From NCBI RefSeq assembly GCF_027889715.1, contig NZ_JAPJZH010000003.1:310001-374000 (forward strand): DNA of 64,000 nucleotides. Reading direction: 5' to 3'. Positions 7,832-34,038 of this stretch are shown one piece after another. The notes below the pieces were generated by a model, which searched no databases, was not told the DNA's origin, and saw only the letters and a program-made list of their open reading frames with translations. Made by a program: the position numbers and the translations under genes. Numbering within the stretch: the stretch's first letter is position 1; the number at the start of each line of letters is the position of its first letter. This DNA is from Allohoeflea poritis (lineage in GTDB: Bacteria > Pseudomonadota > Alphaproteobacteria > Rhizobiales > Rhizobiaceae).

Positions 7832-10159
7832 TCAAACAGCGGAAGGCGCTTCCGCTTGTCTCACAAGCGGAGTTTTGAGCATACTGCGTTGTGGCACCGG
7901 GCCGGTCCATCTGGCCACCTCCACAAGTGATGTGTGTGCGATATTGCCCTGGCTGAGTTCGGAACAACCTTTGTCTCCGGTCAGGACATTCGGATTACCG
8001 CTCACCTCAATGCGCGCTCCGTCGAAATATTGCGGATCGAACCAGGCGCCTGCCGCAAGCGCTACGGTATCCGGCCGTATGTCGTCTGTGAGTACAGCGC
8101 CGGCAAGGCATTTTCCCCGCGCATTGGAAACGCAGACGAGATCGTGGTCCGCGATGCCCCTTTCCCCAGCCGTTTCGGGATGAATGTAGAGCGCCTCGCA
8201 TCCGCCGATCTTTTGACTGCGTGAATGGGAACCATTGTCCAGTTGTCCGTGCAGGCGTGTTGCGGGCTGTCCGGATATGAGATGCAGCGCGCCTTCGGCA
8301 ACCCCGTCCTGGCCCAGCCATTCCACCGGCTCCACCCATAACGGATGCGCGGGACAGTCCTGTAGCCCGAAGCTGCCAATCCGCTCCGAGACGATCTCGA
8401 TCTTGCCGCTGGCGGTCTGAAGCGGCGCCCCGGCCGGGTCCTTCACAAAGGCTTCCAACTGGATCCGGTTCTCGTCGCAATCCGGGCATTCAAAAATCCC
8501 GTTCTCGCGAAATGCATCGAAATCCGGCAGTTCAAAGCCATTGTAGCGCGCCACCTCGCCGGCCTCCAGCCACAACCGACGGATCCAGTCGTCCTTGGAC
8601 TTGCCTTCAGTGAACTCGGCGTGCGTGCCGAGCCGTTCCGCCAGCGCCCGGAATATGTCGTGATCGTCGCGTGCTTCGCCCATCGGCTCGAGCAACCGGT
8701 CCATCCATACGAGGCAGGGGTCACGCCGGTTCATCATGATATCGGTGCGCTCGAGCGGCGAGGTTGCCGGCAGGACGATGTCGGCCCGGCGGGCGGTCGC
8801 CGTCCACCATTGCTCATTGACGATCACCGTCTCGGGGCGTGTCCACGCCTCCTCCAGCCGGTAAAGATCCTGGTGGTGATGGAACGGATTGCCGCCGGCC
8901 CAGTAAACGAGCTTGATATCAGGATAGGTCCGATGCCCGCCATCATAGCGATACCCGGCACCTGGATGAAGCAGCATGTCGGCGATACGGGCGACGGGAA
9001 TGGCCTGTGACACCGGGTTCTGTCCTTGCGGGAAAGACGGCCAGTTCATCAGTTTCCTGGGCCGGCCGACCGGGGTCGTGGATGCATAGCCGAACGCAAA
9101 GCCCGTTCCCGGGCGGCCGATCTGGCCGAGCATGGCCGCCAGCGTCAGTCCCATCCAGATCGGCTGTTCTCCGTGGTCGCTGCGCTGCAGGCTCCAGGCG
9201 ACCGAGATCATGGTCCGGCTGCGCGCCATCCGGGTAGCCAGATCGGTGATCGCGCCGGCTTCGATGCCGCATATCCTCGCCGCCCATTGTGCCGTTTTTT
9301 CAATACCGTCGACGGAACCGTTCAGATAAGACTCGAACACCTCCCAGCCATGGCAATAGCGGTTCAGAAAATTCCGGTCGTGCCAGTTGTTGCGGTAAAG
9401 CTCATGGGCAAGACCGAGCATCAGCGCGGTGTCGGTGTTGGGGCGGACCGGCAGCCATTCGGACCGGCCGGTACCGCAAAAGTCCGAACGCCGCGGAGAG
9501 ATACTGACAGCGACCATGCCGTTCCTGCCGGCCCTGTCCATCCAGTGTTCCACCTCATGCGTGGAGGTGCCGCTCGATGTTATCTGGGCCGTGTTTGCGG
9601 AAATACCGCCAAAGGCCACCAGCAACTCGCAATGTTCCGCGACCAGCGCCAGGCTGGTCATATTGTCCTGAAACGCGCGATGGGGCATGCCGACAATGTA
9701 AGGCAGCAGCACTTCGGCGGCGGCATGCGAATAGGTGTTGCGCGAGGCCGTGAACCCGCCGATCGTGTTGAGGAAGCGGCGCATTTGCGACTGTGCGTGA
9801 TGAAACCGGCCGGCGCTTGCCCAGCCATAGGAGCCGGCGAAGATGGCCTCATTGCCATGAGTCGTGCGAACCCTGTTCAGTTCGGCGGCAACAAGGTCGA
9901 GCGCCGTTTCCCAGTCGGTTTCCACAAAGCTGTCATCGCAGCGGTCGGCCGTGCTGCGGTTTTCCAACCAGCCCTTTCGGATGGCCGGCCTTTGCACACG
10001 CACACCGGTGTCGCGAACGGCATCGATCCAGCCATCAGCGATTTTCGACGGCGCCGGATCGTCTTCGATCCCTTCGAGACGCAGCGAAGCGCCCTCACCC
10101 GCCACCTGGTAGGTTCCCCAATGCGCTGCGGTGTAACGCTTCGCCACTATCGTCTCCAC
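7832..10159 (-). CDS. Molybdopterin oxidoreductase, BisC/DMSO-reductase type
   Basis: A 775-residue DMSO-reductase-family enzyme (bis-MGD). It has no N-terminal Cys motif for an Fe-S cluster and no Tat signal, which fits a cytoplasmic biotin- or methionine-sulfoxide reductase. Residues Y111 and W113 (in GSYGW) and S144 (in NTYSHAAAEV) are spaced exactly like Tyr114, Trp116 and Mo-ligand Ser147 of Rhodobacter DMSO reductase, so oxygen-atom transfer from an S- or N-oxide is likely. The GTG start is at 10159; a second GTG lies 15 bases in. It is the last gene of the 11-gene operon, 31 bases after the LsrF-like gene. In this sulfur-flavoured context a methylthio-sulfoxide substrate is attractive but unproven. 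Confidence 0.85.
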   Translation of the reverse strand: METIVAKRYTAAHWGTYQVAGEGASLRLEGIEDDPAPSKIADGWIDAVRDTGVRVQRPAIRKGWLENRSTADRCDDSFVETDWETALDLVAAELNRVRTTHGNEAIFAGSYGWASAGRFHHAQSQMRRFLNTIGGFTASRNTYSHAAAEVLLPYIVGMPHRAFQDNMTSLALVAEHCELLVAFGGISANTAQITSSGTSTHEVEHWMDRAGRNGMVAVSISPRRSDFCGTGRSEWLPVRPNTDTALMLGLAHELYRNNWHDRNFLNRYCHGWEVFESYLNGSVDGIEKTAQWAARICGIEAGAITDLATRMARSRTMISVAWSLQRSDHGEQPIWMGLTLAAMLGQIGRPGTGFAFGYASTTPVGRPRKLMNWPSFPQGQNPVSQAIPVARIADMLLHPGAGYRYDGGHRTYPDIKLVYWAGGNPFHHHQDLYRLEEAWTRPETVIVNEQWWTATARRADIVLPATSPLERTDIMMNRRDPCLVWMDRLLEPMGEARDDHDIFRALAERLGTHAEFTEGKSKDDWIRRLWLEAGEVARYNGFELPDFDAFRENGIFECPDCDENRIQLEAFVKDPAGAPLQTASGKIEIVSERIGSFGLQDCPAHPLWVEPVEWLGQDGVAEGALHLISGQPATRLHGQLDNGSHSRSQKIGGCEALYIHPETAGERGIADHDLVCVSNARGKCLAGAVLTDDIRPDTVALAAGAWFDPQYFDGARIEVSGNPNVLTGDKGCSELSQGNIAHTSLVEVARWTGPVPQRSMLKTPLVRQAEAPSAV

Positions 10160-10190
10160 TCGGCTGACGGTGCTGCCGTGGACCTGACGC

Positions 10191-11072
10191 CTAATTTCCG
10201 CCCTTCAGATCGTTGTACATCTGCAGTGCCTTTTCGGGCGCTTCCAGCGTGTGCACCACATGGGAAACCGCCTGGATCATGGCGACCGGATCATCGGCCT
10301 GGAAGATGTTGCGCCCCATATCCACGCCCGCCGCGCCCTGGTCGATGGCCTTGTAGGCCATTTCCAGCGCTTCAAGTTCCGGCAACTTCTTGCCGCCCGC
10401 AATGACGATCGGGACCGGACAGCCGGCGCAAATGCGCTCGAACCCTTCCTCGACGAAATAGCTCTTGACGTAGTGGGCACCGATTTCAGCGGCAATGCGG
10501 GTCGCCAGGGAGAAATAACGCTCGTCACGCGCCATTTCCTTGCCTACACCGGTAACGGCAAGCGTGGGAATGCCGTAGCGCTGGCCCTCGTTGATCAGCT
10601 TTGAGACGTTCATGATGGATTTGTGTTCGTATTCCGCGCCGATGTAAATCTGCGAGGCCATGGCGCAGGCACCAAGGCGGATCGCATCGTCGATATCAAC
10701 GGATACCGCCTCGTTGGACAGCTCCGTCAACACGGAACTGCCGGCCGTTGCACGCAATGCGATGGGAACGTTGATCGTCGGCGGAATGGTGGCGCGCAAA
10801 ATGCCACGGGTGCACATGAGCACATCGGCATGTTCGATCAGCGGAACGATCGACAGGTCGATGCGCTCCAGTCCGCTGGTCGGACCCTGTAGATAACCGT
10901 GGTCGAAGGCAAGCATGACCGTGCGGCCGGTTTTGGGATTGAACAGCCGGCTGAGGCGGTTTTTCAGCCCCCAATCGTAATGGGCGTTGCCCTTGATGAT
11001 GAAGCCTTCCTTGTCCTGCGGCCGGTCGAGCCCGAAATCCTTGCCGTCCTTAATGCCGTCCATGTCAGCCAT
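10191..11072 (-). CDS. lsrF: LsrF-like 3-hydroxy-5-phosphonooxypentane-2,4-dione thiolase
   Basis: A 293-residue class I aldolase-fold protein that closely follows E. coli LsrF along its whole length as I recall it. Examples are [12 protein letters not shown] at the start, [32 protein letters not shown] and [16 protein letters not shown]. The Schiff-base lysine K203 ([14 protein letters not shown]) has the same number as in LsrF. LsrF transfers an acetyl group from a phosphorylated C5 dione to CoA, giving DHAP and acetyl-CoA in autoinducer-2 breakdown. The start is firm (AGGAAGGA before the ATG). No LsrG partner is in the window, so the natural substrate may be a different phosphorylated 2,4-dione. 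Confidence 0.88.
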
Positions 11073-11147: not shown

Positions 11148-11840
11148 TCAAAGCGCCTCTTTCATGCCGCGGAACGCCGCCGCGGGATCGTCGGCACGCA
11201 TCACTGCACTGCCGCTGACGACCATGTCGGGGGCGGCATTGGCGATCTCGCCGATCGTCGCGGCGGTAACGCCGCCATCGAACTGAATGAGCGGGCCGCC
11301 CGGCCCGAAACGCTGCCGCAACTCCGCAACGCGCCCGCAAGCGCGAGTGACGTCCGGCGGCTGCTTGCCGCGCGGATCGAGCGCGGCAACAAGCAGGAGG
11401 TCGGGTTCCATCGCCAGCAGTTCGCCGGCATCGTCGATCGCCGTGTCGGGCAGCAGGCACAGGCCGGCAAGGACCGGCCGTCCCGCGCTTTCGGCCGCTT
11501 TACGGATCGCGCGCAGGGCTTCGGCAGGCGCTTCCGATTCTGCCTGGACGGTGACGATGTCGGCACCGGCCGCCACAAAGTCCGTGACGTGATCCGCCGG
11601 CCTTTGCACCATGAGGTGGACATCCCGGATCATGTTGCCCGCCAAGGCCTTGACGAAGCCCGGCCCGCCGCTGATCTGCGGTACGAAGACACCATCCATG
11701 ACGTCGAAATGCAGGATGCCGCATCCCCAGCCGGCCGACGCCTGCGCGTCGCCGCGCAAATTGCCGGGGTCCCCGGCAAAGATGCCAAGACTGATGCCGC
11801 GGCAACGCTCCTTCAAGGATTCTATCGTGTTTCCAGTCAC
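11148..11840 (-). CDS. Ribulose-phosphate 3-epimerase family protein
   Basis: A 230-residue TIM-barrel protein with the Rpe signatures: LHFDVMDGVFVP (usual HVDVMDGHFVP), VHLMVQRP, and the C-terminal QFDGGVT with the second catalytic Asp and a phosphate-binding VSGSAVM. It would epimerise a ketopentose or ketohexose phosphate at C3. Divergence from housekeeping Rpe, and its place between LsrF and a CoA-binding protein, suggest a specialised substrate (compare AlsE for allulose 6-phosphate). The GTG start at 11840 has GGAG upstream; an overlapping ATG is out of frame. Confidence 0.82.
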   Translation of the reverse strand: MTGNTIESLKERCRGISLGIFAGDPGNLRGDAQASAGWGCGILHFDVMDGVFVPQISGGPGFVKALAGNMIRDVHLMVQRPADHVTDFVAAGADIVTVQAESEAPAEALRAIRKAAESAGRPVLAGLCLLPDTAIDDAGELLAMEPDLLLVAALDPRGKQPPDVTRACGRVAELRQRFGPGGPLIQFDGGVTAATIGEIANAAPDMVVSGSAVMRADDPAAAFRGMKEAL

Positions 11841-11868: not shown

Positions 11869-12333
11869 TCAAATTCCCAAGTCGAGTCTCGGTTTCCAGA
11901 ACGGTCTGAAAAGCTCGATCTTGGGGCACCGGTCCATGACGACCTTCAGGCCCGCGTCCTCGGCGAGCTTCGCCGCTTCATCGTCATAGACGCCGATCTG
12001 GCCCCACAGCACCTTGGCGCCGATCTCGATGGCCTCCTGCGCGATGCCGTAAAGCTCTTCCTTGCGCCGGAACACCTCCACCATGTCCACGGGACGGTCG
12101 ATCGCCTTCAGCGACGGATAGACCTTGATGCCGCGGATCTCTTTCAATTCCGGATTGGGGTTGACCGGCACCATGTCGTAGCCGGTCTCGTGCAGCACCC
12201 GCAGCACGCCGTAGCTGAACTTGGTCTTGTCGGCACTTGCCCCCACCATGGCGATGGTTTTGACGGATCTCAGAATGTCGGCCAGATATTCGGGATCATA
12301 GTCGTATCTGCGGTCAATATCGGCGTCCGGCAT
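11869..12333 (-). CDS. YccU-like CoA-binding domain protein
   Basis: A 154-residue Rossmann CoA-binding protein. It has TIAMVGASADKTKFSYGV near residue 30, VPVNPNP, and the C-terminal VMDRCPKIE motif typical of the YccU family. It begins 2 bases after the ferredoxin stop. The family is widespread and poorly characterised, and related folds form the CoA-binding half of acyl-CoA synthetases. In this operon it may deliver or hold CoA for the LsrF-type thiolase, but that is a guess from position. Confidence 0.82.
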   Translation of the reverse strand: MPDADIDRRYDYDPEYLADILRSVKTIAMVGASADKTKFSYGVLRVLHETGYDMVPVNPNPELKEIRGIKVYPSLKAIDRPVDMVEVFRRKEELYGIAQEAIEIGAKVLWGQIGVYDDEAAKLAEDAGLKVVMDRCPKIELFRPFWKPRLDLGI

Positions 12334-12335
12334 GT

Positions 12336-12701
12336 CTACTGGTCCTTCGTCGTGGCGATGTCGGCTTTGAGTTCGTGCGGCTCCAGCGGGTCGAGAAACG
12401 GATTGCGGTAGAGCCTGTCGTGGCTCTCGACCCCGATATCGAAGGTGCAGTCCGACAATGGACGCGCAACGCACAGGATCACATAGCCGTCGTTGATCTG
12501 CCTGTTGTTGAGAGCCACCTGCGCCTTCTGATTGACCTCGCCTTCGATCAGCTTCGCGGCGCAGGTGATACAGCCGCCATATTTACAGCCATAGGGCAGG
12601 TCGACACCCTGGTCGCGCAGGCTGTCGAGCAGCGGCTTCTTCGCGTCCACCGCGTAGGTCGCGTTGCCGCGGTTGGCAATGGTGATGGTGCGGGTCGTCA
12701 T
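12336..12701 (-). CDS. Plant-type [2Fe-2S] ferredoxin
   Basis: A 121-residue ferredoxin. Cluster ligands C39, C44, C47 and C77 follow the plant-type spacing C-x4-C-x2-C-x29-C (GCKYGGCITC ... ILC). The tail after residue 90 is longer than in simple ferredoxins. Its ATG overlaps the stop of the methanethiol oxidase gene (ATGA), so the two are translationally coupled. No reductase is encoded nearby, so the electron donor and acceptor are open. Candidates for a partner in the operon are the molybdoenzyme and an unlinked oxygenase. Confidence 0.88.
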   Translation of the reverse strand: MTTRTITIANRGNATYAVDAKKPLLDSLRDQGVDLPYGCKYGGCITCAAKLIEGEVNQKAQVALNNRQINDGYVILCVARPLSDCTFDIGVESHDRLYRNPFLDPLEPHELKADIATTKDQ

Positions 12702-14053
12702 ATCCAGATATCGCTCGTGCAGTCGCCGCCGGGATAACGCGTCTCGTGACAGCGCGACGGGCCGTTCGGCTCCCTGCCGAAATCGACGACGAAGTCCGGG
12801 TCGATCTCCATGCCGCCGTTGTCCGTGTCGCAATTGACCATCAGCATGCAGCCGCCATTGGTCCGGATTTCAGGGTAGAACTGATTGTCCCAGGTCGAAA
12901 ACAGCGACGTCGTCACGTAAAGCCGCTTGCCGTCGAGCGACAGCTGGATCATCTGCGGACCGCCGGTCACCTTCACGCCATTGACCTCGGGCGCCTTGCC
13001 CAGCAGGCCGCCCATCCACACCTGCCCTGTCAGTACGGGCCTGTGCGGATCGGAAATGTCATATTGGCGGATATCGCCGTGCAGCCAGTTGCACAGATAC
13101 AGGAACCGGTCATCCATCGACAGCAGGATCACCGAGATCACACCCGGCACCGGGATCGGCCATTCGGGATGCGGCTCGTTCTCGACGTCGATGATCTTCT
13201 CCCACTGCCATTCGCCCGCCGCGTCCTTCCACCAGTGGATGATGTTGGCCGAAAGGGCCGCGCCGACAAAGCCGTGCGAGGAATCCGGATCGTGATGAAA
13301 CCGCACTTCCAGCGGTATCAGGCCGTCTTCGCCGAGATAGAAGGTCTGTTTCGGTTCTTTCTTTTCGAAATCCCACAGATGGATTTCGCGGCCGTATTTC
13401 AGGTGACCCACTTCTTCCAGATCAAAACCCGGCATGAAGGTGTTGGGCGCGGCCCATTCGGAACTCACCATCACATTGTGGCGGGGCTGATACCAGAAAT
13501 CGTAGCCGAACTTGATGTCACCCATGGACTCTTCCCAGCGGCCGACGATCTCGAAATCCTTGTTGAGGTGCAGATAGCCGCCCGGCGCGTTTCCTTTCGC
13601 ATCGCCGAGCATGGAAATGATGATGTCCGACCCCAGGCAGTGGACGGTATGCGGCGCGCTGAGATTGGTCTTCGCCTTGATCTCGGCGCCGTCGATCACC
13701 TTGTGGAGCTTCGGATTGCGCGGGTCCGTGCCACAGTCGACGATGTGCAGATTGGTCGAGCGAACGCCCGGCACAATAAGGTATTTGCGCTCCATGCTGG
13801 CGTCGTCATGGCAGGAGGAACAGGCATTCCAGCCCATGTGGTGAAGTTCATCACCAATGCCCGGCATCTCAAGTCGGGAGATTACCTGAGAGTAGGTCGG
13901 GCTGTCCGGATCCGCATCGATCGTGCAGAGGTAATCCGGCTTTTGAATACCTGTTCCTGTGTAAATGGCGATTGTGTAAAGCACTTTTTCCCGCGGGGCC
14001 TTCATCGCCTCCGCCGGTGAAGCGTAGCCGGGACCGCAACATGTTTCCGACAT
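12698..14053 (-). CDS. mtoX: Methanethiol oxidase (selenium-binding protein 56 family)
   Basis: A 451-residue beta-propeller of the SBP56 family. The hallmark H72-MGWNACSSC-H82 is intact, and histidines at APHTVH, DFWYQPRH and RFHHDPDSSHG fit the family's metal-binding pattern. Characterised bacterial members (MtoX) convert methanethiol with O2 to formaldehyde, H2S and H2O2 and need copper. The start was chosen at 14053 because GGGAGGT precedes it; the frame is open 15 bases further up. No obvious signal peptide is present, unlike some periplasmic MtoX. The SCO/MauG-type maturation genes often found next to mtoX are absent. It lies 22 bases after the aldolase-SDR gene. Confidence 0.85.
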   Translation of the reverse strand: MSETCCGPGYASPAEAMKAPREKVLYTIAIYTGTGIQKPDYLCTIDADPDSPTYSQVISRLEMPGIGDELHHMGWNACSSCHDDASMERKYLIVPGVRSTNLHIVDCGTDPRNPKLHKVIDGAEIKAKTNLSAPHTVHCLGSDIIISMLGDAKGNAPGGYLHLNKDFEIVGRWEESMGDIKFGYDFWYQPRHNVMVSSEWAAPNTFMPGFDLEEVGHLKYGREIHLWDFEKKEPKQTFYLGEDGLIPLEVRFHHDPDSSHGFVGAALSANIIHWWKDAAGEWQWEKIIDVENEPHPEWPIPVPGVISVILLSMDDRFLYLCNWLHGDIRQYDISDPHRPVLTGQVWMGGLLGKAPEVNGVKVTGGPQMIQLSLDGKRLYVTTSLFSTWDNQFYPEIRTNGGCMLMVNCDTDNGGMEIDPDFVVDFGREPNGPSRCHETRYPGGDCTSDIWI

Positions 14054-14075: not shown

Positions 14076-16118
14076 CTATCTCAGTTCCGCCGCGGTGTTT
14101 CCGCCGTCGACGGTCAGCACATGACCTGTCGTGCGTTCCGACAGGGCGAGCGCCACAAAGGCCTCGCCGACATGGCGCGCCTCAACCTCTCTTCCCAGAA
14201 GATTGCCGCCCATGTAATCGGCTTCGCTGACACCGCGCGCGGCCGAGCGTTCCTTGATGAAATCATCCGTCAAAAGCCCCGAGCGTATGCGGTCGGCATT
14301 GATGCCGTTGACCCGGATGCCGTCGCCGCCGAGTTCCAGCGCCAACTGGCGCATGAGGAACATTGTCGCCGCCTTCGGCATGCCATAGGCGCCCATGTTC
14401 TTGCCCGGATTGATCGCCTGCTTGGAAATATTGAAGAGGATCTGCCCCGGACGCTGCTGGCGCAGCATCAGCGAGGCGGCGGCGGTCGAGAAATTCTTGT
14501 GCGCGAAGAAATTGAGCTCGAAGGCCTTGCGGAACGCCGCGTCGTCGAGATCGAGCATCGCCCCGCCGGTCGCCGAACCGGCGTTCGACACGAGGATATC
14601 CAACCCGCCGAAGGTCGCCACGGCGTGGTCCATGGCGGCCTGCGCCGCGTCGTCCCGGGTGATGTCGCAGGCGAATGTGCCGTGCCATTGCCCGAGTTCC
14701 GCGACGGCGCTCTCCAACCGCTCGGCATCGAGATCGACCAGAATGCAATTGGCGCCAAGGTTCGCGAAAGCCCTCGCCGTCGCCAGGCCGATGGCGCCCG
14801 CCCCGCCGGTGACCATGACCACCCTGCCCTGAAGCAACGGCTTTGAAAGCCGGTCCAGCTTGGCCCGCTCGACCGGCCAGTATTCGCACTCGAACCGGCG
14901 TTCCTCGGAAATCGGGTGGAACCCGCCGGCGTCCTCGCCGGCAATCCGCACCGCCATGTTCTGTTCGGCAAGATCGGCGGCAATGGCGGCGGAGCGCGCG
15001 TCGCTGCCGATCCCGACAATGCCGATGCCCTCGATCCAGGCGTGCCTGGGGTCCGGGGTCACCATGGTCCTTGACGCATCCGACCTTGCGGCATTGCGCT
15101 CGAAATAGGCGGCATAATCGGCTTCGAAAGCGTGAACGGCTTTTTCAATCGCATCGCGCCCCGCCGCGCAGGTCTGCCTGGAAAGCACCAGGGGCGAGCC
15201 CTTGATGTGCAGCACATGATCCGGCGAACAGACCCCTCGCCCGGACAGCGCCTCGACATCGGATCTGGCCCAGATTGCTTGCGCGGCCGCATTGCCGCGC
15301 ACGTCGAAAACGGGCATCGGCACATCCGGGTCATCGCGCTGCGCGGCAATGACACCGCGCAACACCGGCAGAACCGAAAGATCCGTTGCCGGCTCGTCGC
15401 CCCCGCGCTCCGTGGCTTCGGTCAAACCGAAATAGGCAGCCGCTTCATTGACCTGATCGACAGCCCGTGTGTAGCTCTCCTGCGCCGTGTCACCGAAAGC
15501 CACGTGGCCGTGATTGAGCAGCAACAGACCTTCCACGTCCGGATTTTCATCGAAGATCTCCGCCGCCAGTTTGTTCAGGCCAAATCCCGGCATCATGTAG
15601 GGAACGACGCCAACCCGGTCGCCGAAAATCTCACGACATACCTCTTTCGCGTTCGGCAGATTCGCGAGCACAAGAAAGGGCGTGGCGTGGGTATGGTCCA
15701 CATAGGTGTGCGGCAGAAAGGCATGCAGCAGCGTTTCGATCGACGGATTCGGCGAACTCGCGTCAAGCAGCGCGCCGCGCTGGGCGCTGATCATCTGAAC
15801 GTCGCTGAGACCGTCGAGCTGGCGCTGTTTCAGAAGCGGGTCGAGCCAGACACCCGGCATGCCTTCCGCCTCGACCGCGCCCAGGTCCCAGCCGGACCCC
15901 TTGATGTGGAGAACGGCTTGCTCCTCGCCGTAGAGGTCCCGGCGCCGGACCTTGACCGACGTGTTGCCGCCGCCATGCATGACCAGATCGGGGTCCTGGC
16001 CGATCAGCTGCGATGTGTAGACGCGCTCGGCCAGTTCCTGGTCCGCCGGATCATCGCCGGCCTGCCGGCGCCAGCGCATTGCCTCGTCGCGATTGTAACG
16101 GTTCTCAATCATCATCAT
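14076..16118 (-). CDS. Bifunctional class II aldolase / short-chain dehydrogenase (RhaD-ADH type)
   Basis: A 680-residue two-domain enzyme. Residues 1-420 are a class II (Zn) aldolase: VMHGGGNTSVK, LHIKGSGWDLG, E128 (SIETLLHAF), zinc histidines H142 and H144 (DHTHAT) and LLNHGH at 201-205. Residues 430-680 are an SDR with TGGAGAIG (437-444), SNAG, and the S565/Y578/K582 triad. This is the architecture of fused rhamnulose-1-phosphate aldolase/lactaldehyde dehydrogenases: it cleaves a 1-phosphoketose to DHAP and an aldehyde and then converts the aldehyde by NAD(P)-linked redox chemistry. Three consecutive ATG codons make the exact start ambiguous. With mtnK/mtnA nearby and methanethiol oxidase next, 5-methylthioribulose 1-phosphate is a plausible substrate. 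Confidence 0.88.
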   Translation of the reverse strand: MMMIENRYNRDEAMRWRRQAGDDPADQELAERVYTSQLIGQDPDLVMHGGGNTSVKVRRRDLYGEEQAVLHIKGSGWDLGAVEAEGMPGVWLDPLLKQRQLDGLSDVQMISAQRGALLDASSPNPSIETLLHAFLPHTYVDHTHATPFLVLANLPNAKEVCREIFGDRVGVVPYMMPGFGLNKLAAEIFDENPDVEGLLLLNHGHVAFGDTAQESYTRAVDQVNEAAAYFGLTEATERGGDEPATDLSVLPVLRGVIAAQRDDPDVPMPVFDVRGNAAAQAIWARSDVEALSGRGVCSPDHVLHIKGSPLVLSRQTCAAGRDAIEKAVHAFEADYAAYFERNAARSDASRTMVTPDPRHAWIEGIGIVGIGSDARSAAIAADLAEQNMAVRIAGEDAGGFHPISEERRFECEYWPVERAKLDRLSKPLLQGRVVMVTGGAGAIGLATARAFANLGANCILVDLDAERLESAVAELGQWHGTFACDITRDDAAQAAMDHAVATFGGLDILVSNAGSATGGAMLDLDDAAFRKAFELNFFAHKNFSTAAASLMLRQQRPGQILFNISKQAINPGKNMGAYGMPKAATMFLMRQLALELGGDGIRVNGINADRIRSGLLTDDFIKERSAARGVSEADYMGGNLLGREVEARHVGEAFVALALSERTTGHVLTVDGGNTAAELR

Positions 16119-26952: not shown

Positions 26953-27951
26953 TCAGGGAGCCACTTCTAGCAACTGCCGGGCGATGCGTGAACTCGTGGT
27001 CAGGTGGGTCACATAGCCACCGCGTATCGCGGCGCGGGCTGACACGGCGCGGCCCTTTCCCGCCGCCACCAGAAGCGCCATTTCCTTGTTTCGCATCTTT
27101 TCGAGGGAAACGCCGATCATACGCTCTTCTGTCGCCGTTTTGACCGGCTGACCTTCGGCATCGATCAGGCGCCCGCAGATCACGCCGACAGCGCCCTGCT
27201 GCGCGTGATGCTCAAGTTCCTGCGGTCCGACAAGACCGGTCTGCACGATATGGGCCTCGGCATCGCAGGTGCCGCAGGCCAGAACGGTCTTGTTGCAATT
27301 CGCCAGCGCGGCCAGTTGTGCGGCAACCACGGGTTCCTCGCAAAGCGTTTCGCGGAGCGCTTTGCTGGTCAGCAAAAGAGGAACGTGCAGGTTGATGCAA
27401 AGCCCGCCGAGTTTTTGTGCCAGCACGGATGTACAGGCTTCCGCGGCAAAGCCCAGCGATGCGGGACGCGACCCAAGCAGTTGGACCACCGTGAGGTCCT
27501 CGATCGGGGTCGCGGTCATCTGGTGCGCCATCTGGTAGACCGTCTCGCCCCAGGAGACGCCGAGCCGGTCGCCCGGCACGAGCAGCCGCGGCAGCCAATC
27601 GGCGGCGGCGCGGGTGACTCTTGCGACCTCGGCTTCCGCATCGGCCGGATCATCCGGCACGACAAGCGCTTCCGACAAGCCGTAAGCGGCGCACAGGTCT
27701 TCCGACAGGCGGTGGCCAAGGAAAACGCTGCTGTCCAGATAGACGCGGACCCAGCCGCGCGTCCTTGCCTCGCTCAGATAATTCACCACCGAGGCACGGC
27801 TGATTTTCATTCGGTCGGCGATCTCGTTCTGGTTCAGGCCGTTGTGGTAGTACAGCCAGGCCGCCTCGATGAACGGCGCGTCATCGCGATAGGTCATGCG
27901 GGCCGGCTCGGCACCGCTCTTTCGCGGCTTGCTGGGCGCGCTTCCTGACAC
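26953..27951 (-). CDS. Second SorC/DeoR-type regulator, linked to mtnK-mtnA
   Basis: A 332-residue paralogue of the regulator at 17.2 kb. HTH GLNQNEIADRMKISRASVVN (39-58), sugar-binding domain with GVSWGETVYQMAHQM, and the C-terminal GGYVTHLTTSSRIARQLL. The GTG at 27951 lies 5 bases after the mtnA stop with GGAG upstream; an ATG at 27897 is the alternative. As third gene of the mtnK-mtnA-sorC operon it probably senses a phosphorylated methylthiopentose and controls the divergent promoter at 30350-30443. Confidence 0.88.
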   Translation of the reverse strand: MSGSAPSKPRKSGAEPARMTYRDDAPFIEAAWLYYHNGLNQNEIADRMKISRASVVNYLSEARTRGWVRVYLDSSVFLGHRLSEDLCAAYGLSEALVVPDDPADAEAEVARVTRAAADWLPRLLVPGDRLGVSWGETVYQMAHQMTATPIEDLTVVQLLGSRPASLGFAAEACTSVLAQKLGGLCINLHVPLLLTSKALRETLCEEPVVAAQLAALANCNKTVLACGTCDAEAHIVQTGLVGPQELEHHAQQGAVGVICGRLIDAEGQPVKTATEERMIGVSLEKMRNKEMALLVAAGKGRAVSARAAIRGGYVTHLTTSSRIARQLLEVAP

Positions 27952-27956: not shown

Positions 27957-29060
27957 CTACTCCACGCCGCGCGCCAGTTCGGGGAACATGTCCGACAACC
28001 CTTCGGGCGTGGCGGGGCATATGCCCCGTTCCGTGATCAGTCCGGTGACAAGCCGGTTGGGCGTGACATCGAAGGCCGGGTTGCCGCCCGGCGTGTCATC
28101 GGGAGTCAGTTGCACGGACTCGATCGCGCCGGCCTCCGTCTTGCCCTGGACATGCGTCGTCTCGCGCACGTCGCGTTCTTCGATCGGGATTTCGGCCACA
28201 CCGTTGCTGACGGTCCAGTCGATCGTCGACGACGGCAGGGCGACATAGAACGGAATGTCATTGTCCCTGGCGGCCAGCGCCTTGAGGTAGCTGCCGATCT
28301 TGTTGCAGACATCGCCCTGCCGTGTCGTCCGGTCTGTTCCGATGAGCACCATATCGACAAGGCCATGCTGCATCATGTGTCCGCCCGCATTGTCGGTGAT
28401 GTAGGTATGCGGAACACCATGGCTGCCAAGTTCCCAGGCCGTCAGCGCACCCTGGTTGCGCGGCCGTGTCTCGTCCACCCACACATGCAGCGCAATGCCT
28501 TCGTCGTGGGCCTGATACATCGGACTGGTCGCTGTGCCCCAGTCGACCGTCGCGATCCACCCCGCATTGCAATGGGTCAACAGGCGCGTCGGTTCGCCCG
28601 CCGGTTTTCTCGCCGCGATCTCGCGGATCAGCGCCAGTCCGTTCTCGCCGATGCGGCGGTTGACCTCGACATCCTCATCGGCAATCTCATGCGCGAGGGT
28701 CAGTGCGGCTTCGGCGCGATCCGTTTCGGCCAGCGGCTGCAGGGCCCGGCGGCACCGGTCGAGCGCCCAGCGCAGATTGATTGCCGTGGGGCGGGTCTTT
28801 TCCAGATACGCCCAGGCGGCATCCAGATTGGCGTCGGACGGATCCTCGGCCATGGCAAGGGCCATGCCGTAGGCGGCCGTGGCGCCGATAAGCGGCGCGC
28901 CGCGGACCCGCATCTCGACGATGGCGGTAGCAAGGTCCTGCAACCTGGCGATCTGCTGGATACGCAGCTCGTGCGGCAGCCAGCGCTGGTCGATGATCTC
29001 CAACACGTTGTTTTCGTGGTTCCACCAAAGGGAGCGGTAGTGCGTGCCGTTGATTTTCAC
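27957..29060 (-). CDS. mtnA: S-methyl-5-thioribose-1-phosphate isomerase family protein (MtnA)
   Basis: A 367-residue eIF2B-like isomerase. Catalytic C164 (LLTHCNAGWIATVDWGTAT) and D243 (GTDRTTRQGDVCNKIGSY) are both present, and MRVRGAPLIGATAAYG is the conserved N-terminal motif. It converts 5-methylthioribose 1-phosphate, or the 5-deoxyribose analogue, to the ribulose 1-phosphate. The GTG start overlaps the mtnK stop (GTGA) and has a GGGAGGGA ribosome-binding site. The usual later Met-salvage genes mtnB/C/D are not in the window. Confidence 0.93.
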   Translation of the reverse strand: MKINGTHYRSLWWNHENNVLEIIDQRWLPHELRIQQIARLQDLATAIVEMRVRGAPLIGATAAYGMALAMAEDPSDANLDAAWAYLEKTRPTAINLRWALDRCRRALQPLAETDRAEAALTLAHEIADEDVEVNRRIGENGLALIREIAARKPAGEPTRLLTHCNAGWIATVDWGTATSPMYQAHDEGIALHVWVDETRPRNQGALTAWELGSHGVPHTYITDNAGGHMMQHGLVDMVLIGTDRTTRQGDVCNKIGSYLKALAARDNDIPFYVALPSSTIDWTVSNGVAEIPIEERDVRETTHVQGKTEAGAIESVQLTPDDTPGGNPAFDVTPNRLVTGLITERGICPATPEGLSDMFPELARGVE

Positions 29061-30316
29061 AGGAAATCCCTCCCATTGAAGTCCCGGGCCATATCGCAAA
29101 CAGCCCCGGCGCCCGACAGATTATCGCACATTCGGATCAGATCGGCCCCCAACATGAGGTTCCGGGCCTCAAGACGGGCCCGCACAGTCATGTCCCCGAT
29201 CTCCTCGAAATCGGCGTTGTGGGCGAGCGACAGGCAGCGGCGATGCATCTCGATGCCGCAAACGCACCAGGCATCGCGCCAGATTCCGGCCAACACGGCA
29301 TCGCAGGCGGGCACGCTGTCCTGCCCCTGATCCTCGAACAGCGCGGCGGGGTAGAGCATGCCGGTGCGCTCGCTCGCCCACAGCCGCCTGAATTCGGCCT
29401 CGAAGACCGCACAGGTTTCCTCAATGACACTCAGGATCCAGCCCTGATAGGTCTCGGCGTCGGCACCGCGATGAGCCGGCTGGCTGAAATAAGCCATCAG
29501 GAAGTTCGCGCACAGCATGCCGATGTCGAAACCCATCGGCCCGTACTGCACGAATTCCGGGTCGATAATCCGCGAGCTTGACGGCGTGGACATGATCGAA
29601 CCCGAATGCAGATCGCCATGCACCATCGTTTCGGTGTTCGACGCGAAACTTTGCAGCATCTGCTGCACCTTCACCTTCAGCGGCACATCCCCGCGCAGTG
29701 CGGACACGACCGGTTCGAGACCCTTGGTGTGGTTGTTCATCTCCGCGTCATAGTAAGGGTCGGTAAAGACCAGCGCTTCTGTAATCGCCGGAATTTCCAC
29801 ATTGCCGGCGAACAAGGACACATCCGACTTCTTGTCCGCGCTTGCCATGGAAAGCTCCGAGCCACGGAATGCCGTGCGTGCGCAAAATTCGCCCAGGAAT
29901 GCCGCCAGCCCCTCCACACGCTCGCCATTGATGAGCTTTCGGCGAAGGATCACGTGCGGCTGGAGAAATTCCATCACAATCAGGGCCTGATCTTCGTCGA
30001 AATGAAGTACCGATGGCACCGAGCCAGGCGCGCGCGCCGCCTGACGCGTCAATGCGTGGTATTCATAGTAAGCCCGGTACAGCGGCAGCGGCCAGCTGTC
30101 CCCCACCAGCCGCACATAGGGAAGCGCCTGCTTGACGATGACGCTGCCGATCGGGCCGCTGACGATGAAAACAAGGTTGAGATTGCCGTCACCGACCTCC
30201 TGAACCGACCATTGGGATGGATCGGCGCCCACCCCCGAAGTGATGGCATCGATCCCGCCGAGCCGCGCGGGCAGCGTCTCGACACTCAAGGCTTTGTATT
30301 CTGCGCTGGGGCTCAT
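29057..30316 (-). CDS. mtnK: S-methyl-5-thioribose kinase (MtnK)
   Basis: A 419-residue kinase of the aminoglycoside-phosphotransferase-like fold. VHGDLHSGSIM (about 231-241) is the MtnK catalytic loop and DPEFVQYGPMGFDIGML (about 251-267) the metal-binding segment with the family's YGPMGFD signature. It phosphorylates 5-methylthioribose at C1. An upstream ATG at 30349 is in frame, but it would lie on top of the probable -10 region, so 30316 is preferred. It is the first gene of the operon, followed by overlapping mtnA. Confidence 0.93.
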   Translation of the reverse strand: MSPSAEYKALSVETLPARLGGIDAITSGVGADPSQWSVQEVGDGNLNLVFIVSGPIGSVIVKQALPYVRLVGDSWPLPLYRAYYEYHALTRQAARAPGSVPSVLHFDEDQALIVMEFLQPHVILRRKLINGERVEGLAAFLGEFCARTAFRGSELSMASADKKSDVSLFAGNVEIPAITEALVFTDPYYDAEMNNHTKGLEPVVSALRGDVPLKVKVQQMLQSFASNTETMVHGDLHSGSIMSTPSSSRIIDPEFVQYGPMGFDIGMLCANFLMAYFSQPAHRGADAETYQGWILSVIEETCAVFEAEFRRLWASERTGMLYPAALFEDQGQDSVPACDAVLAGIWRDAWCVCGIEMHRRCLSLAHNADFEEIGDMTVRARLEARNLMLGADLIRMCDNLSGAGAVCDMARDFNGRDFL

Positions 30317-30371
30317 CGACCATTTTCCATATGTGACTGTTCCCGCCATGCATTAGCAGTCGAATTGTCAA

Positions 30372-30393
30372 AAGTCAATTGACTTGACTTATG
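30372..30393. promoter_or_regulatory. Palindromic operator between mtnK and the second importer
   Basis: AAGTCAATTGACTT (30372-30385) is a perfect 14-bp palindrome, immediately overlapped by a third half-site TTGACTTATG (30384-30393). The half-site AAGTCAA/TTGACTT is the same as in elements A and B at 20.75-20.86 kb. On the minus strand TTGACT with TAATGC 17 bases on would serve mtnK. The site is therefore probably both promoter and SorC operator. Confidence 0.6.
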
Positions 30394-30443
30394 CGTAAAA
30401 TGGTGAGAAACGTAACACTGCACACCGCCTGGGGAGGAGAAAT

Positions 30444-31961
30444 GTGCCCGAAAAAGCGCTCGAAATAAGGGGTTTGCTCAAGGCATTCGGCAGGAACCAG
30501 GTCCTGAAGGGCATCGACCTGTCGCTGGAATCGGGCACCGTAACGGTGCTCATGGGCGCAAACGGCGCGGGCAAATCCACACTTGTCAAAGTGATTTGCG
30601 GCCATCACCGTGCCGATGGCGGCGACCTCATGCTGGCGGGACGGCCCTTCTCGCCGGCGGACGCTTCCGACGCAATCTCGAAGGGCGTGGTGACGGTGCA
30701 CCAGTCGATTGACGACGGCGTGATCCCCGAGCTGGACGTCGCCAACAATCTGATGCTGGACCGGCTGGTCGAAACCGGATCGGGCTTCTTCGTGCATGAA
30801 GGCAAATTGCGCAAGGAAGCGCAAAAGGTGGCCGCGTCCATGGGCATTGATGTCGATCTGAAGGCGCGCGTCGCCGATCTTTCGGTCGCGGACCGGCAGA
30901 TGATCGCCATCGCGCGGGCCATGGCGCGCGCTCCCAAGGTTCTGATCCTCGACGAGCCGACCTCGTCGCTTTCGGCGGCTGAGGCAAACCGGCTCTTCGC
31001 GCTGATCGACCGGTTGCGGGACCAGGGCGTCGCGATCCTTTACATCTCGCACCGCCTGTCGGACATCCGCCGCGTGGCCGATCGCATCTTGTGCATGCGG
31101 GACGGCTCCATCTCGGGCGTTTTCGAAACACAGCCGCTCGACTACGAAGCCGCCGTGACGGCAATGCTCGGCCACCGCATGACCGAAGTGGATATCAGTG
31201 TTGAAAAAGGCGGCGCACCGGTTCTGGAACTGGACGGGATACGGCTTTCGACAGATGGAAACCGCTTCGACCTTTCCGCGCGCGACGGCGAAGTCATCGC
31301 GCTGGTCGGCCTTCTGGGAAGCGGCAAGAGCCGCCTCGCCGAAACCATCTACGGCATGGCCCGGCTGGAAGGCGGAGAAATGCGGATAGACGGAAAGCCA
31401 TTCCGTCCGGCCTCGGTACACGACGCGATTGCGCATGGTGTTTTCATGTCGCCCAAGGACCGGGGGTCCAACGCGGTCATCCCGGCCTTCGACATCGCGA
31501 ACAACATGACTTTGCCGTTTCTGTCCCGGTTCAGCGCCGGCTCGTTTCTTCAGTCACGCCGCCTGCGATCGCGTTCCCGCGAGATGAACGAGCGGCTCGG
31601 CGTCGTCTGCCAGAGCGAAACGGATGGCATCGGAACGCTTTCCGGCGGCAATCAGCAAAAGGTCATGATCGCGCGATGGCTGATGGAGCCGTGCCGGGTC
31701 CTCTTGCTCGACGAGCCCTTTCAGGGTGTCGATATCGGCGCCCGGCGCGATATCGGCAGGCAGATCCGCGCCTCGGCCCGGGGGCGGGCAACACTGGTCT
31801 TCATGACCGAGATCGACGAGGCACTGGAGATCGCGGACCGCATCGTCGTCATGACCGAAGGCACCATTGCCGGCGAACACATCAACGAAAACATCGACCT
31901 TGCCGCACTGGTTTCGGACATCTCCGGCACCGAAGCGGGCCTTGCAGGACACAGCGCATGA
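30444..31961 (+). CDS. Sugar ABC transporter ATP-binding protein (second importer)
   Basis: A 505-residue tandem ATPase of the RbsA family. Domain 1 has GANGAGKSTLVK, LSVADRQMIAIARAM and LILDEPTSS. Domain 2 has GLLGSGKSRLAE, which is a complete P-loop here, LSGGNQQKVMIARW and LLLDEPFQGVD. The GTG start has GGGGAGGAG just upstream. It is divergent from mtnK, so methylthioribose or a close analogue is the likely cargo. Confidence 0.92.
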   Translation: MPEKALEIRGLLKAFGRNQVLKGIDLSLESGTVTVLMGANGAGKSTLVKVICGHHRADGGDLMLAGRPFSPADASDAISKGVVTVHQSIDDGVIPELDVANNLMLDRLVETGSGFFVHEGKLRKEAQKVAASMGIDVDLKARVADLSVADRQMIAIARAMARAPKVLILDEPTSSLSAAEANRLFALIDRLRDQGVAILYISHRLSDIRRVADRILCMRDGSISGVFETQPLDYEAAVTAMLGHRMTEVDISVEKGGAPVLELDGIRLSTDGNRFDLSARDGEVIALVGLLGSGKSRLAETIYGMARLEGGEMRIDGKPFRPASVHDAIAHGVFMSPKDRGSNAVIPAFDIANNMTLPFLSRFSAGSFLQSRRLRSRSREMNERLGVVCQSETDGIGTLSGGNQQKVMIARWLMEPCRVLLLDEPFQGVDIGARRDIGRQIRASARGRATLVFMTEIDEALEIADRIVVMTEGTIAGEHINENIDLAALVSDISGTEAGLAGHSA

Positions 31962-32968
31962 ACGACCGTATTCTGGATTTCGCAATCAAATACGGATTCC
32001 TGATCCTGCTGGTGGGGCTGGTGATCTATTTCAGCCTTTCCGCGCCCGGGTTTTCCAGTCCGCGCTCGGCCGTGTTCGTGCTGCAGTCGGTCGCCATTAC
32101 CGGGATCCTCGCGCTCGGCGTAACCTGCACGCTGGTGGTGGACGGCTTCGACCTTTCGATCGGAGCGGTGGCGACCTCGGCGCTGATGCTGTCGGCCTAT
32201 TCCATGGTCATTCTGGAGCAACCGGCCTTCGTGGCGGTGCTTCTGTGCCTCCTCATAGGCGCGTTTGTGGGGCTGATCAACGGTCTGCTCATCGTGAAAT
32301 TCCGGGTGCCGGACCTGTTGGCGACGCTTGGCATGATGTTCCTGCTGATCGGATTGCAGCGCATCCCGACGCAGGGCAACTCGATCGCAACCGGCATGTC
32401 CCTCGGCAATGGCGTGGTGGCGGAGGGGACATTCAGCCAGGCCTTCCTGTGGATCGGCCGTCACCGGTTCGATTTCTTCGTCGAGCGGCTGGTGCCGATG
32501 CCGGTGGTGATCTTTCTGGTCATTGCGGTGCTGATCTGGCTGTTCCTCGGCTTCACCCGCCATGGCCGCCTGATGTATGCGATCGGATCGAATGAGCGCG
32601 CGGCCGGCCTGGTCGGCGCACCGGTGAACACCTACAAGGTCGTTGCCTACATGATCTCCGGCGTGACCGCCTCGATCGGCGGCATATTGCTGGCGGCGCG
32701 GCTGGGCCGTGGGGATATCGCCAGCGGCAACAACCTGCTCCTGGACAGTGTCGCTGCCGCGCTCATCGGTTTCGCCGTCCTCGGCGCCGCACGGCCCAAT
32801 GCGTTCGGAACGGCCATCGGCGCCCTCTTCGTCGGCATCCTGCTGCAGGGCATGACGATGATGAACGCGCCCTACTACACCCAGGATTTCGTCAAGGGCG
32901 CCGTGCTCGTCGCGGCGCTTGTATTCACTTTCTACCTGTCCTCGCGCCGCACCGGGGCCGGACACTGA
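31958..32968 (+). CDS. Sugar ABC transporter permease (second importer)
   Basis: A 336-residue RbsC-type permease with about nine membrane segments and VDGFDLSIGAVATSALML as the signature region. The ATG overlaps the ATPase stop. Only one permease gene is present, so the channel is presumably a homodimer. Confidence 0.9.
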   Translation: MNDRILDFAIKYGFLILLVGLVIYFSLSAPGFSSPRSAVFVLQSVAITGILALGVTCTLVVDGFDLSIGAVATSALMLSAYSMVILEQPAFVAVLLCLLIGAFVGLINGLLIVKFRVPDLLATLGMMFLLIGLQRIPTQGNSIATGMSLGNGVVAEGTFSQAFLWIGRHRFDFFVERLVPMPVVIFLVIAVLIWLFLGFTRHGRLMYAIGSNERAAGLVGAPVNTYKVVAYMISGVTASIGGILLAARLGRGDIASGNNLLLDSVAAALIGFAVLGAARPNAFGTAIGALFVGILLQGMTMMNAPYYTQDFVKGAVLVAALVFTFYLSSRRTGAGH

Positions 32969-32997
32969 TCGATCAACAGCAAGGGAGGAATTCAATC

Positions 32998-34038
32998 ATG
33001 CTGAGACGTAACTTTATCGCGCTGGCGGGCGCCGCCACAATGGCGCTCGGAGGCCTTCCGGCCATGGCATCGGACATGCCGGCGCCCTTCGACAAACCCG
33101 AGGATGTGACCATCGCGCTGGTGCGTTACCTTTCCACCGGCGATTTCTTCCAGGCCTATCTGTCGGGCGTCGAGAGCCAGGCCGCAGCGCTGGGCGTGGA
33201 ATTGCGCGTCTTCGACAGCCGTCAGGACGCGGCACTTCAGGCCGATATGGTCGACCAGGCCATCGCGCTCGGCGTGGACGGCATCGTCATCCAGCACGGC
33301 CTGACCGAATCCATGAAGGAAGCGGCACAGCGGGCCGTGGACGCCGGCATCAAGGTCGTGGCCTTCGACGTGAACGTTGAAAACGAGGCGATCCCGCAGA
33401 TCGAACAGTCGGACTATCTGCTGGGCAAAATGGCTCTGGATCAGGCGCTCGAGGACAATGGCAACGCATTTACCGCCGGCTATGTCTATGTGCCCGGCAT
33501 CGCACCGCTTGACCGCCGCCATGTCGCCTGGGAGGAGGTCAAGGCCGCGAATCCCAGCATCACCGAGGCTGCGCAGTTCGGCACGCTGGACAATCCGATC
33601 GCCAACTCGATCGCAAACCAGGCGCGGGCCGTGCTTCAGGCCAACCCGACCATCAATGTGGTCTTCGCCCCGTATGACGAGTTTGCCAAGGGTGTGAAAA
33701 TTGCCGTGGATGAGGCCGGGCTGACCGATGACATAGACATCTATTCGGCGGACGTTTCCACCGCCGACATTTCGGCCATGCGCGAGCCTGGTTCGGCCTG
33801 GGTTGCGACCGTGGCGACCAACCCGGCGGTCGTCGGTGAGGCTTCGGTACGGGCCCTTGCCCTGATGCTGGCGGGCGAAGACCCGGGTGCTTCGGTTATC
33901 GTTCCGCCCACGCTGATCACCCAGTCGTTCCTGAACGAACAGGATATCAAGAACATGGATGATCTGGGCGAAAAGATGCCCCAGTTCCGGCATGCCGATG
34001 TGGCCATGTCCGACTGGATGCCACTGCCCCCGCGCTGA
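32998..34038 (+). CDS. Sugar ABC transporter, periplasmic binding protein (second importer)
   Basis: A 346-residue binding protein with a signal peptide (RRNFIALAGAATMALGGLPAMA) and a ribose-binding-protein fold (VTIALVRYLSTGDFFQAYLSG, QAIALGVDGIVIQHG, VVFAPYDEFAKGVKIAVDEAG). GGGAGGA lies 9 bases before the ATG. It is the third gene of this importer, whereas in the first importer the binding protein comes first. A terminator hairpin follows 17 bases after the stop. Confidence 0.9.
   Translation: MLRRNFIALAGAATMALGGLPAMASDMPAPFDKPEDVTIALVRYLSTGDFFQAYLSGVESQAAALGVELRVFDSRQDAALQADMVDQAIALGVDGIVIQHGLTESMKEAAQRAVDAGIKVVAFDVNVENEAIPQIEQSDYLLGKMALDQALEDNGNAFTAGYVYVPGIAPLDRRHVAWEEVKAANPSITEAAQFGTLDNPIANSIANQARAVLQANPTINVVFAPYDEFAKGVKIAVDEAGLTDDIDIYSADVSTADISAMREPGSAWVATVATNPAVVGEASVRALALMLAGEDPGASVIVPPTLITQSFLNEQDIKNMDDLGEKMPQFRHADVAMSDWMPLPPR

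Follow-up and report, generated by a model that had tools for sequence, protein, structure and literature searches.

A stretch of 64,000 nucleotides from Allohoeflea poritis contig NZ_JAPJZH010000003.1 (positions 310,001 to 374,000; hereafter the window) carries a SorC-controlled gene island that we interpret, with moderate confidence, as a system for the catabolism of 5-methylthiopentoses (and probably also 5-deoxypentoses) through a variant of the dihydroxyacetone phosphate (DHAP) shunt ending in methanethiol oxidation. The protein families of its open reading frames (ORFs) were checked against Pfam and NCBIfam profiles. The gene set that a first-pass annotation had ascribed to two SorC loci is real: the ORFs and families were confirmed, with MtnK, MtnA and LsrF scoring above NCBIfam cut-offs. 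Absent from that list were an FGGY and a PfkB kinase, a hydroxyacid dehydrogenase, a CoA-binding protein, an epimerase-like protein and a major facilitator superfamily (MFS) protein. Operon A runs along the minus strand from 20701 to 7832 as 11 co-directional genes with intergenic gaps of -40 to 75 bp, in the order FGGY kinase, PfkB kinase, SorC regulator, D-2-hydroxyacid dehydrogenase, fused class II aldolase and short-chain dehydrogenase (aldolase-SDR), SBP56, ferredoxin, CoA_binding_2 protein, epimerase-like protein, LsrF and a BisC-type molybdoenzyme. On the plus strand beyond it lie importer a and then the MFS gene (21026 to 26942). In locus B the minus strand encodes a second SorC regulator, MtnA and MtnK, and importer b is read from the plus strand.

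In the pathway that we propose, importer b would take up 5-methylthioribose, which MtnK and MtnA would turn into 5-methylthioribulose 1-phosphate. The aldolase-SDR would split this into DHAP and 2-(methylthio)acetaldehyde, its SDR domain oxidising or reducing the aldehyde. Importer a, the FGGY and PfkB kinases, the hydroxyacid dehydrogenase and the BisC-type enzyme would provide a second entry for another methylthiopentose derivative: the BisC-type enzyme would reduce a sulfoxide, and the ketose 1-phosphate formed would be cleaved by the same aldolase. The carbon-sulfur (C-S) bond would then be broken, possibly by one of several candidate enzymes in operon A, and the methanethiol released would be oxidised to formaldehyde and sulfane sulfur by a cassette of SBP56, ferredoxin and CoA-binding protein. 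That oxidation chemistry has been published for Rhodobacteraceae oxidases, two of them belonging to cluster 1 (PMC10936201).

The import of 5-methylthioribose and the MtnK and MtnA steps are strongly indicated by the protein families and by the relatives of the importer. The nearest solved structure to the importer b binding protein is 4ry8, titled 5-methylthioribose transporter solute binding protein, and importer b is probably a 5-methylthioribose importer. The absence of mtnB, mtnC and mtnD, part of the earlier proposal, stands genome-wide for mtnB (none over the cut-off, three weak matches) and for mtnD/ARD (no match), with control genomes matched in both searches; mtnC was not searched for. 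With no mtnB over the cut-off and no mtnD, the host genome agrees with a DHAP shunt, where the universal salvage route would be missing. A RuBisCO-like query, which bears on the MTA-isoprenoid shunt with its DeepYkr-type RuBisCO-like protein, found no match in the host genome, in a search without a positive control, and there is none in the window either. Six PNP_UDP_1 matches in the genome are candidates for a 5'-methylthioadenosine nucleosidase or phosphorylase, none of them assigned.

The aldolase-SDR is best read, on strong indications, as the enzyme that cleaves 5-methylthioribulose 1-phosphate to DHAP, because elsewhere its gene is often linked to mtnA or mtnK and to a methylthioribose-type importer. 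Homologues were found in 30 of 297 genomes of the host's order (its own included) at E 1e-180. Neighbourhoods were fetched for 20 of the other 29, namely the ten best matches and ten further ones. mtnA shares the stretch with the aldolase-SDR gene in 15 of these 20 loci, at distances of 6 to 6673 bp; mtnK is also present in eight and the importer b binding protein in seven. In the window itself the aldolase gene lies in the operon neighbouring that of mtnA. In Ruegeria mtnA is followed by an aldolase-SDR 67% identical to the window protein, and on a Shinella plasmid a SorC gene and an aldolase-SDR gene stand beside importer b and a run of mtnK, mtnA, split transketolase and RuBisCO-like protein. 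A 25-row tree places the window protein in a starred (well-supported) clade of six, whose other five members are all encoded 6 to 82 bp from mtnA. The first-pass assignment of this protein as a 5-methylthioribulose 1-phosphate aldolase thus appears well founded on both the linkage and the clade. Among the best 25 profiles it passed only the generic bifunctional aldolase/SDR model NF006192 (782.5 versus 639 bits); a RhaD-type rhamnulose-1-phosphate aldolase/dehydrogenase was rejected (TIGR02632, 431.6 bits, below the cut-off of 567.75). We regard it as a likely counterpart of Ald2, the aldolase of the Escherichia coli DHAP shunt, with an SDR domain that would act, oxidatively or reductively, on the resulting aldehyde.

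The three cysteine motifs by which cluster 1 of the methanethiol oxidases is defined, GWNACS, HTV(I)HC and GGDCS(T) (PMC10936201), are all present in SBP56, as GWNACS, HTVHC and GGDCT. Two enzymes of this cluster, RdMTO and RlMTO of Rhodobacteraceae, are described as converting methanethiol to sulfane sulfur (PMC10936201). We surveyed the best 80 of 590 named genome loci encoding SBP56 relatives, among the matches listed (83 to 94% identity). Of the 80, 79 have a ferredoxin gene after SBP56 and 77 a CoA_binding_2 gene, and in the three loci without a complete cassette the contig ends within 26, 122 and 498 bp; the cassette is nearly invariant among these loci. In Phaeobacter the cassette precedes genes for a rhodanese, a metallo-hydrolase, an enoyl-CoA hydratase, an acyl-CoA synthetase and a GcvT-like protein, which we take to resemble dimethylsulfoniopropionate demethylation genes, and this context supports methanethiol as the substrate of this SBP56 clade. 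A Hyphomicrobium-type MtoX operon, in which SCO1/SenC and MauG neighbours would be expected (PMC5739008), was considered and rejected, the window SBP56 being flanked by other Pfam families. The ferredoxin and CoA-binding partners receive no mention in the main text of PMC10936201 or PMC5739008. A second SBP56 gene, its product 40% identical to that of the window, was seen in Roseovarius about 4.5 kb after the cassette (L060:15901).

Sugar genes like those of the window adjoin the cassette in two of the 80 loci. Locus L055 has, in order, importer a, the FGGY kinase (60% identity), PfkB (80%), SorC (70%), the hydroxyacid dehydrogenase (79%), a fuculose-phosphate-aldolase-like gene and the cassette; locus L020 has the molybdoenzyme (49%), the hydroxyacid dehydrogenase (61%), the cassette and the FGGY kinase (58%). 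Four of the 80 loci, L020 among them, include a BisC-type gene (49-50%) in their stretch. Since gene order differs between L055 and L020, the association argues for function rather than one inherited accident, though two of 80 is few.

The second module comprises importer a, the two kinases, the hydroxyacid dehydrogenase and the molybdoenzyme. The importer a binding protein was found at E 1e-100 in 11 of 397 genomes of the host's order, its own included, and among 385 genomes of the host's class in its own only. It is 75% identical (local alignment) to proteins in two Klebsiella pneumoniae records and 71-88% identical across 10 aligned relatives, one Klebsiella row included. The molybdoenzyme has trimethylamine N-oxide and dimethyl sulfoxide (DMSO) reductases as its nearest solved relatives, and is related to the BisC family without being classed as BisC (864 versus 1017.55 bits).

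In the Klebsiella record L138 the gene order is aminotransferase, mtnC, mtnD, molybdoenzyme, importer a and PfkB, then an opposite run of mtnB, FGGY kinase and hydroxyacid dehydrogenase, these last three co-directional and at most 12 bp apart. A second Klebsiella record has mtnA and mtnK farther along from the importer a module. Importer a (71-75%), PfkB (62%) and the molybdoenzyme (46%) are clear relatives of those in the window. In the host's order importer a keeps varying company, drawn from FGGY kinase, zinc dehydrogenase, AraD-like protein, SorC, molybdoenzyme, split transketolase and RuBisCO-like protein. Seven of the ten other genomes (G071, G282, G310, G346, G370, G330 and G273) have the molybdoenzyme no more than about 15 kb from importer a; in G367 and G394 the best molybdoenzyme matches are elsewhere in the genome, and in G393 importer a sits on a 4.8-kb contig. 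The closest solved chain to the RuBisCO-like protein of L111 is 3qfw, which we take to be RLP1 of Rhodopseudomonas palustris. R. palustris RLP1 is described as isomerising 5-methylthioribulose 1-phosphate (PMC5893883). Relatives of the RuBisCO-like and transketolase genes stand beside mtnKA and the aldolase-SDR gene in L192 and L221, while in L196 a RuBisCO-like relative with no transketolase counterpart stands beside the aldolase-SDR gene. An importer-b-type binding protein (51-55%) is encoded beside an FGGY kinase in L110 and L114, and in L113 about 2.8 kb separate a PfkB relative from an MtnK relative.

The second module is thus linked to mtn genes, to RuBisCO-like and transketolase genes and to relatives of mtnKA and the aldolase-SDR, and so is found alongside every known branch of 5-methylthioribulose 1-phosphate metabolism. 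The earlier idea would have suffered had each half of the island kept company with unrelated sugar pathways only, and this is not what we found: the second half occurs with mtnB, mtnC and mtnD in Klebsiella and with RuBisCO-like and transketolase genes elsewhere. While this linkage to methylthio-sugar genes is seen directly, the reduction of a sulfoxide is our conjecture. We read the module as a putative second entry for another methylthiopentose, perhaps a sulfoxide, the sugar and the order of steps being those that the gene content suggests. A broader version, which we put forward only tentatively and consider rather doubtful, is a new entry in which importer a and the BisC-type enzyme would recover an S-oxidised or otherwise altered methylthiopentose and the kinases would make a compound like 5-methylthioribulose 1-phosphate; its fate would be, according to host lineage, mtnBCD salvage, an aldolase or aldolase-SDR, or a RuBisCO-like protein with a split transketolase, and in A. 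poritis the methylthio group would be fully oxidised through the cassette. If so, methylthio-sugars would here be taken aerobically all the way to formaldehyde and sulfane sulfur, the first such complete route.

Several observations touch this module from the side. RuBisCO-like proteins are encoded beside mtnK/mtnA or importer a in L106, L107/L147, L108/L148, L110, L111, L192 and L221, with a split pair resembling 1-deoxyxylulose-5-phosphate synthase/transketolase in all but L106; these loci possibly represent an undescribed route from 1-methylthioxylulose 5-phosphate or 1-deoxyxylulose 5-phosphate. An LVIVD-repeat protein is annotated beside mtnK in Klebsiella (L150:40137-40897), and ORFs that look similar by eye lie near PfkB or importer-b-type genes (L110:16436-17575 and L113:13950-15203). 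Among plasmids, one Sulfitobacter record encodes an importer a binding protein at 45% identity, the other rows listed reaching 43% or less; on this Sulfitobacter dubius plasmid (L139) the distant version of the module (binding protein 45%, PfkB 43%) is accompanied by an SDR, a class II aldolase and an aldehyde dehydrogenase.

Both divergent promoter regions of the island hold the word TTGACTTATG, one exact copy each and two in the whole window. With at most one mismatch it matches six times, four of them in the two promoter regions and two elsewhere, against 1.08 expected, and none of 100 shuffles reached six; in 2.82 million bases of loci, own-genome loci included, the exact word occurs five times. 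Two window copies of a longer element align with promoter stretches of L055, L107 and L108 that were chosen by eye from among the importer a promoters. Operon A and locus B may be under shared control through these putative operators. However, the two SorC proteins are 39% identical over 314 aligned columns, so half-sites common to both promoters could also reflect family likeness.

A number of findings weigh against the pathway as proposed. At the aldolase, five of the 20 homologue loci have neither mtnA, mtnK nor the importer b binding protein in the stretch. The linkage to mtnA shows no significant clustering when the entire tree is considered (129 of 500 shuffles gave a value as low), since linked and unlinked copies are mixed. 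At the oxidase, SBP56 scores 155 bits, far under the cut-off of 650 of the NCBIfam MtoX equivalog NF052453; we do not class it as an MtoX equivalog and take it, by motif, for a probable cluster-1 methanethiol oxidase. In 78 of the best 80 oxidase loci the cassette stands without such sugar genes. Beyond the cassette of L055, on the other strand, lies a methionine-gamma-lyase-like gene (367 bits, below the cut-off of 549.7) that could be an alternative source of methanethiol. MtnK was not found in the genomes of L055 or L020 at E 1e-30, genome completeness not being stated, and the L055 genome has no BisC-type match at 1e-150; because of these gaps the modules appear separable, and the sugar-oxidase module may act without locus B. 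In Klebsiella, the FGGY kinase and the dehydrogenase are only 30% and 37% identical to those of the window and may be analogues of them, and in the second record several module genes are in pieces or unannotated. By the published description, about 15 genes are inserted there between mtnA and mtnD, with an inverted mtnB in their midst (PMC3228920). Finally, since no recognised C-S lyase is found among the island enzymes, the supply of methanethiol is a presumption; the hydroxyacid dehydrogenase, the epimerase-like protein and LsrF are candidates for the cleavage. The aerobic shunt of the first-pass annotation, ending in oxidation of released methanethiol, is supported in part, by the linkage of the aldolase-SDR and the cluster-1 motifs of SBP56; methanethiol release and a single sugar for both halves are suppositions within it. 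In other genomes its gene combination recurs in part, with the aldolase-SDR linked to mtnA and the cassette, in the two loci above, to sugar genes; SBP56 is present in none of the 20 aldolase-SDR loci.

Could the island be two unrelated pathways lying side by side? Locus B and the aldolase-SDR would then make up a DHAP shunt, importer a, the kinases, the dehydrogenase, LsrF and the epimerase would serve an ordinary pentose, polyol or sugar acid, and the oxidase cassette would merely have landed there. We think this improbable, though it deserves to be taken seriously. The best models for PfkB include 5-dehydro-2-deoxygluconokinase and keto-deoxygluconate kinases, and those for the dehydrogenase the glyoxylate/hydroxypyruvate reductase GhrB, all below cut-off; for the importer a binding protein the nearest solved structures are 4wt7 and 3l49 rather than 4ry8, which binds methylthioribose; and the rarity of sugar genes beside the cassette points the same way. 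Yet the aldolase-SDR, so often mtnA-linked elsewhere, is located inside operon A, which shares a promoter element with locus B, and the second module has its Klebsiella and RuBisCO-like/transketolase linkages, while the cassette joins related sugar genes in two further loci with different gene orders.

5-Deoxyribose (or 5'-deoxyadenosine) might instead be the true substrate of locus B and the aldolase-SDR, yielding DHAP and acetaldehyde, with the sulfur incidental and the cassette there for another source of methanethiol. The sulfur-free sugar is also a substrate of known DHAP shunts, whose enzymes are reported to accept both it and 5-methylthioribose (PMC10986504), and the island has no recognised C-S lyase; but importer b has a binding protein whose closest relative binds methylthioribose, and operon A also holds a methanethiol oxidase and a sulfoxide-reductase-type enzyme, and we judge the idea unlikely. 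Hardly credible, in our opinion, is an autoinducer-2 (AI-2)-like (lsr) catabolic system with extra genes, as a SorC/LsrR-like regulator, FGGY kinase, ribose-type importer and LsrF might suggest. LsrF does exceed its cut-off (482 versus 297 bits), and two records, one from Shinella and one from Sagittula, encode it together with an FGGY kinase and an aldolase akin to the aldolase-SDR (33% and 41%). However, the FGGY kinase scores 104 bits against the cut-off of 528 for the AI-2 kinase LsrK, and the regulator 119 against 486 for LsrR; there is no LsrF match in the importer a module stretches examined, and Klebsiella record CP125156 carries LsrF at a distant place. In the methylthiopentose pathway that we favour, LsrF and the epimerase-like protein may act in a side branch, and the co-occurrence of LsrF with an FGGY kinase and an aldolase relative hints at a thiolytic side route. 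The two records (L219 and L220, from Sagittula and Shinella) also encode a glycerol-3-phosphate-dehydrogenase-like protein and a ribose-type importer beside LsrF, the FGGY kinase and the class II aldolase.

The features of the island are collected in Table 1. Its GC content is uniform, 0.60 to 0.63 across 8 to 36 kb of the window, and an Rfam scan gave no match at the gathering score. On one side a DUF3604 protein of unknown function (5389-7740) adjoins a tripartite tricarboxylate-type transporter receptor (4346-5422). On the other, positions 34411-64000 encode two acyl-CoA-ligase-type proteins, an enoyl-CoA hydratase, an acyl-CoA dehydrogenase and a Rieske oxygenase among SDR-like ORFs, these last recognised by eye; this is probably an acid-degradation region unrelated to the island.

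Table 1. Genes and putative operators of the island, in window coordinates (bits are profile scores, with the curated cut-off)
Feature	Position	Strand	Basis and remarks
BisC/TorA/DMSO-reductase-type molybdoenzyme	7832..10159	-	TIGR00509, 864 bits, below cut-off 1017.55
LsrF-type thiolase	10191..11072	-	NF006081, 482 bits, above cut-off 297
Ribulose-phosphate 3-epimerase-like protein	11148..11840	-	PF00834; TIGR01163, 109 bits, below cut-off 212.6
CoA_binding_2 protein of oxidase cassette	11869..12333	-	PF13380
2Fe-2S ferredoxin of oxidase cassette	12336..12701	-	PF00111
SBP56 methanethiol oxidase, cluster 1 by motif	12698..14053	-	PF05694, 694.6 bits
Class II aldolase-SDR fusion	14076..16118	-	Domains; HxH and YxxxK motifs; proposed 5-methylthioribulose-1-phosphate aldolase / aldehyde dehydrogenase or reductase
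D-2-hydroxyacid dehydrogenase family protein	16182..17219	-	PF02826, PF00389
SorC-family regulator 1	17231..18193	-	PF04198; start codon uncertain, predicted ORF longer
PfkB-family sugar kinase	18216..19220	-	PF00294; start codon uncertain; ORF overlaps FGGY kinase by 40 bp
FGGY kinase (xylulokinase-like)	19181..20701	-	PF00370, PF02782; TIGR01312, 280 bits, below cut-off 380
Putative SorC operator A1	20726..20770		FGGY kinase-importer a intergenic region; aligns with by-eye stretches of L055, L107 and L108
Putative SorC operator A2	20849..20895		Holds TTGACTTATG
Importer a (binding protein, ATPase, two permeases)	21026..25625	+	
MFS transporter	25680..26942	+	PF07690
SorC-family regulator 2	26953..27897	-	Start codon uncertain; 39% identical to SorC 1
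MtnA, 5-methylthioribose-1-phosphate isomerase	27957..29060	-	TIGR00512, 421.8 bits, above cut-off 279
MtnK, 5-methylthioribose kinase	29057..30349	-	TIGR01767, 440.5 bits, above cut-off 275
Putative SorC operator B	30363..30400		mtnK-importer b intergenic region; holds TTGACTTATG
Importer b (ATPase, permease, binding protein)	30444..34038	+	Probable 5-methylthioribose importer

The route in outline is not new, being covered by the DHAP shunt, as treated in PMC10986504, PMC12632272, PMC6079011 and PMC6302742, and by the aerobic DHAP-methanethiol shunt (PMC5893883). Within the literature searched, three features are new: the fusion of aldolase and SDR, the second sugar module, and an operon that includes the methanethiol-oxidase cassette. 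Among the matches listed from the open-licence PubMed Central (PMC) literature there is no description of an aldolase-SDR in this role, of the second module or of an oxidase-ferredoxin-CoA-binding cassette. The first-pass view of the combination as undescribed holds to this extent, while an aerobic DHAP-methanethiol shunt was already known from R. palustris. In that organism 2-(methylthio)ethanol was the product seen, and the authors call for identification of the enzymes leading from it to methanethiol, left unidentified there (PMC5893883); the island offers a short list of candidates encoded in the same operon as a methanethiol oxidase. A function is also suggested for proteins generically annotated as 'bifunctional aldolase/short-chain dehydrogenase', and the comparison points to an accessory module in which methylthio-sugar genes of Rhizobiaceae-group bacteria and Klebsiella are joined by a sulfoxide-reductase-type enzyme. 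Some bacteria, the island suggests, burn the sulfur waste of S-adenosylmethionine metabolism rather than salvage it.

As described for E. coli ATCC 25922 (PMC10986504), the DHAP shunt likewise employs MtnK, MtnA and a class II aldolase, Ald2, to take 5-methylthioribulose 1-phosphate to DHAP. There ald2 is a separate gene, whereas in the window the aldolase is fused to an SDR and the genes are joined by ABC importers, SorC regulators, a methanethiol oxidase and a second sugar module. The R. palustris shunt is likewise aerobic, with an aldolase route and methanethiol as product, but by its published account is entered through MtnP and feeds methionine salvage, in contrast to MtnK entry and the proposed methanethiol oxidation here (PMC5893883). 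RdMTO and RlMTO share their three cysteine motifs with the window SBP56, which, unlike those enzymes as described in PMC10936201, lies inside a sugar operon with ferredoxin and CoA-binding partners. The Klebsiella methionine salvage cluster has the same importer a, PfkB, FGGY kinase, hydroxyacid dehydrogenase and molybdoenzyme next to mtn genes; where it encodes mtnB, mtnC, mtnD and an aminotransferase, the window has the aldolase-SDR and the methanethiol oxidase instead.

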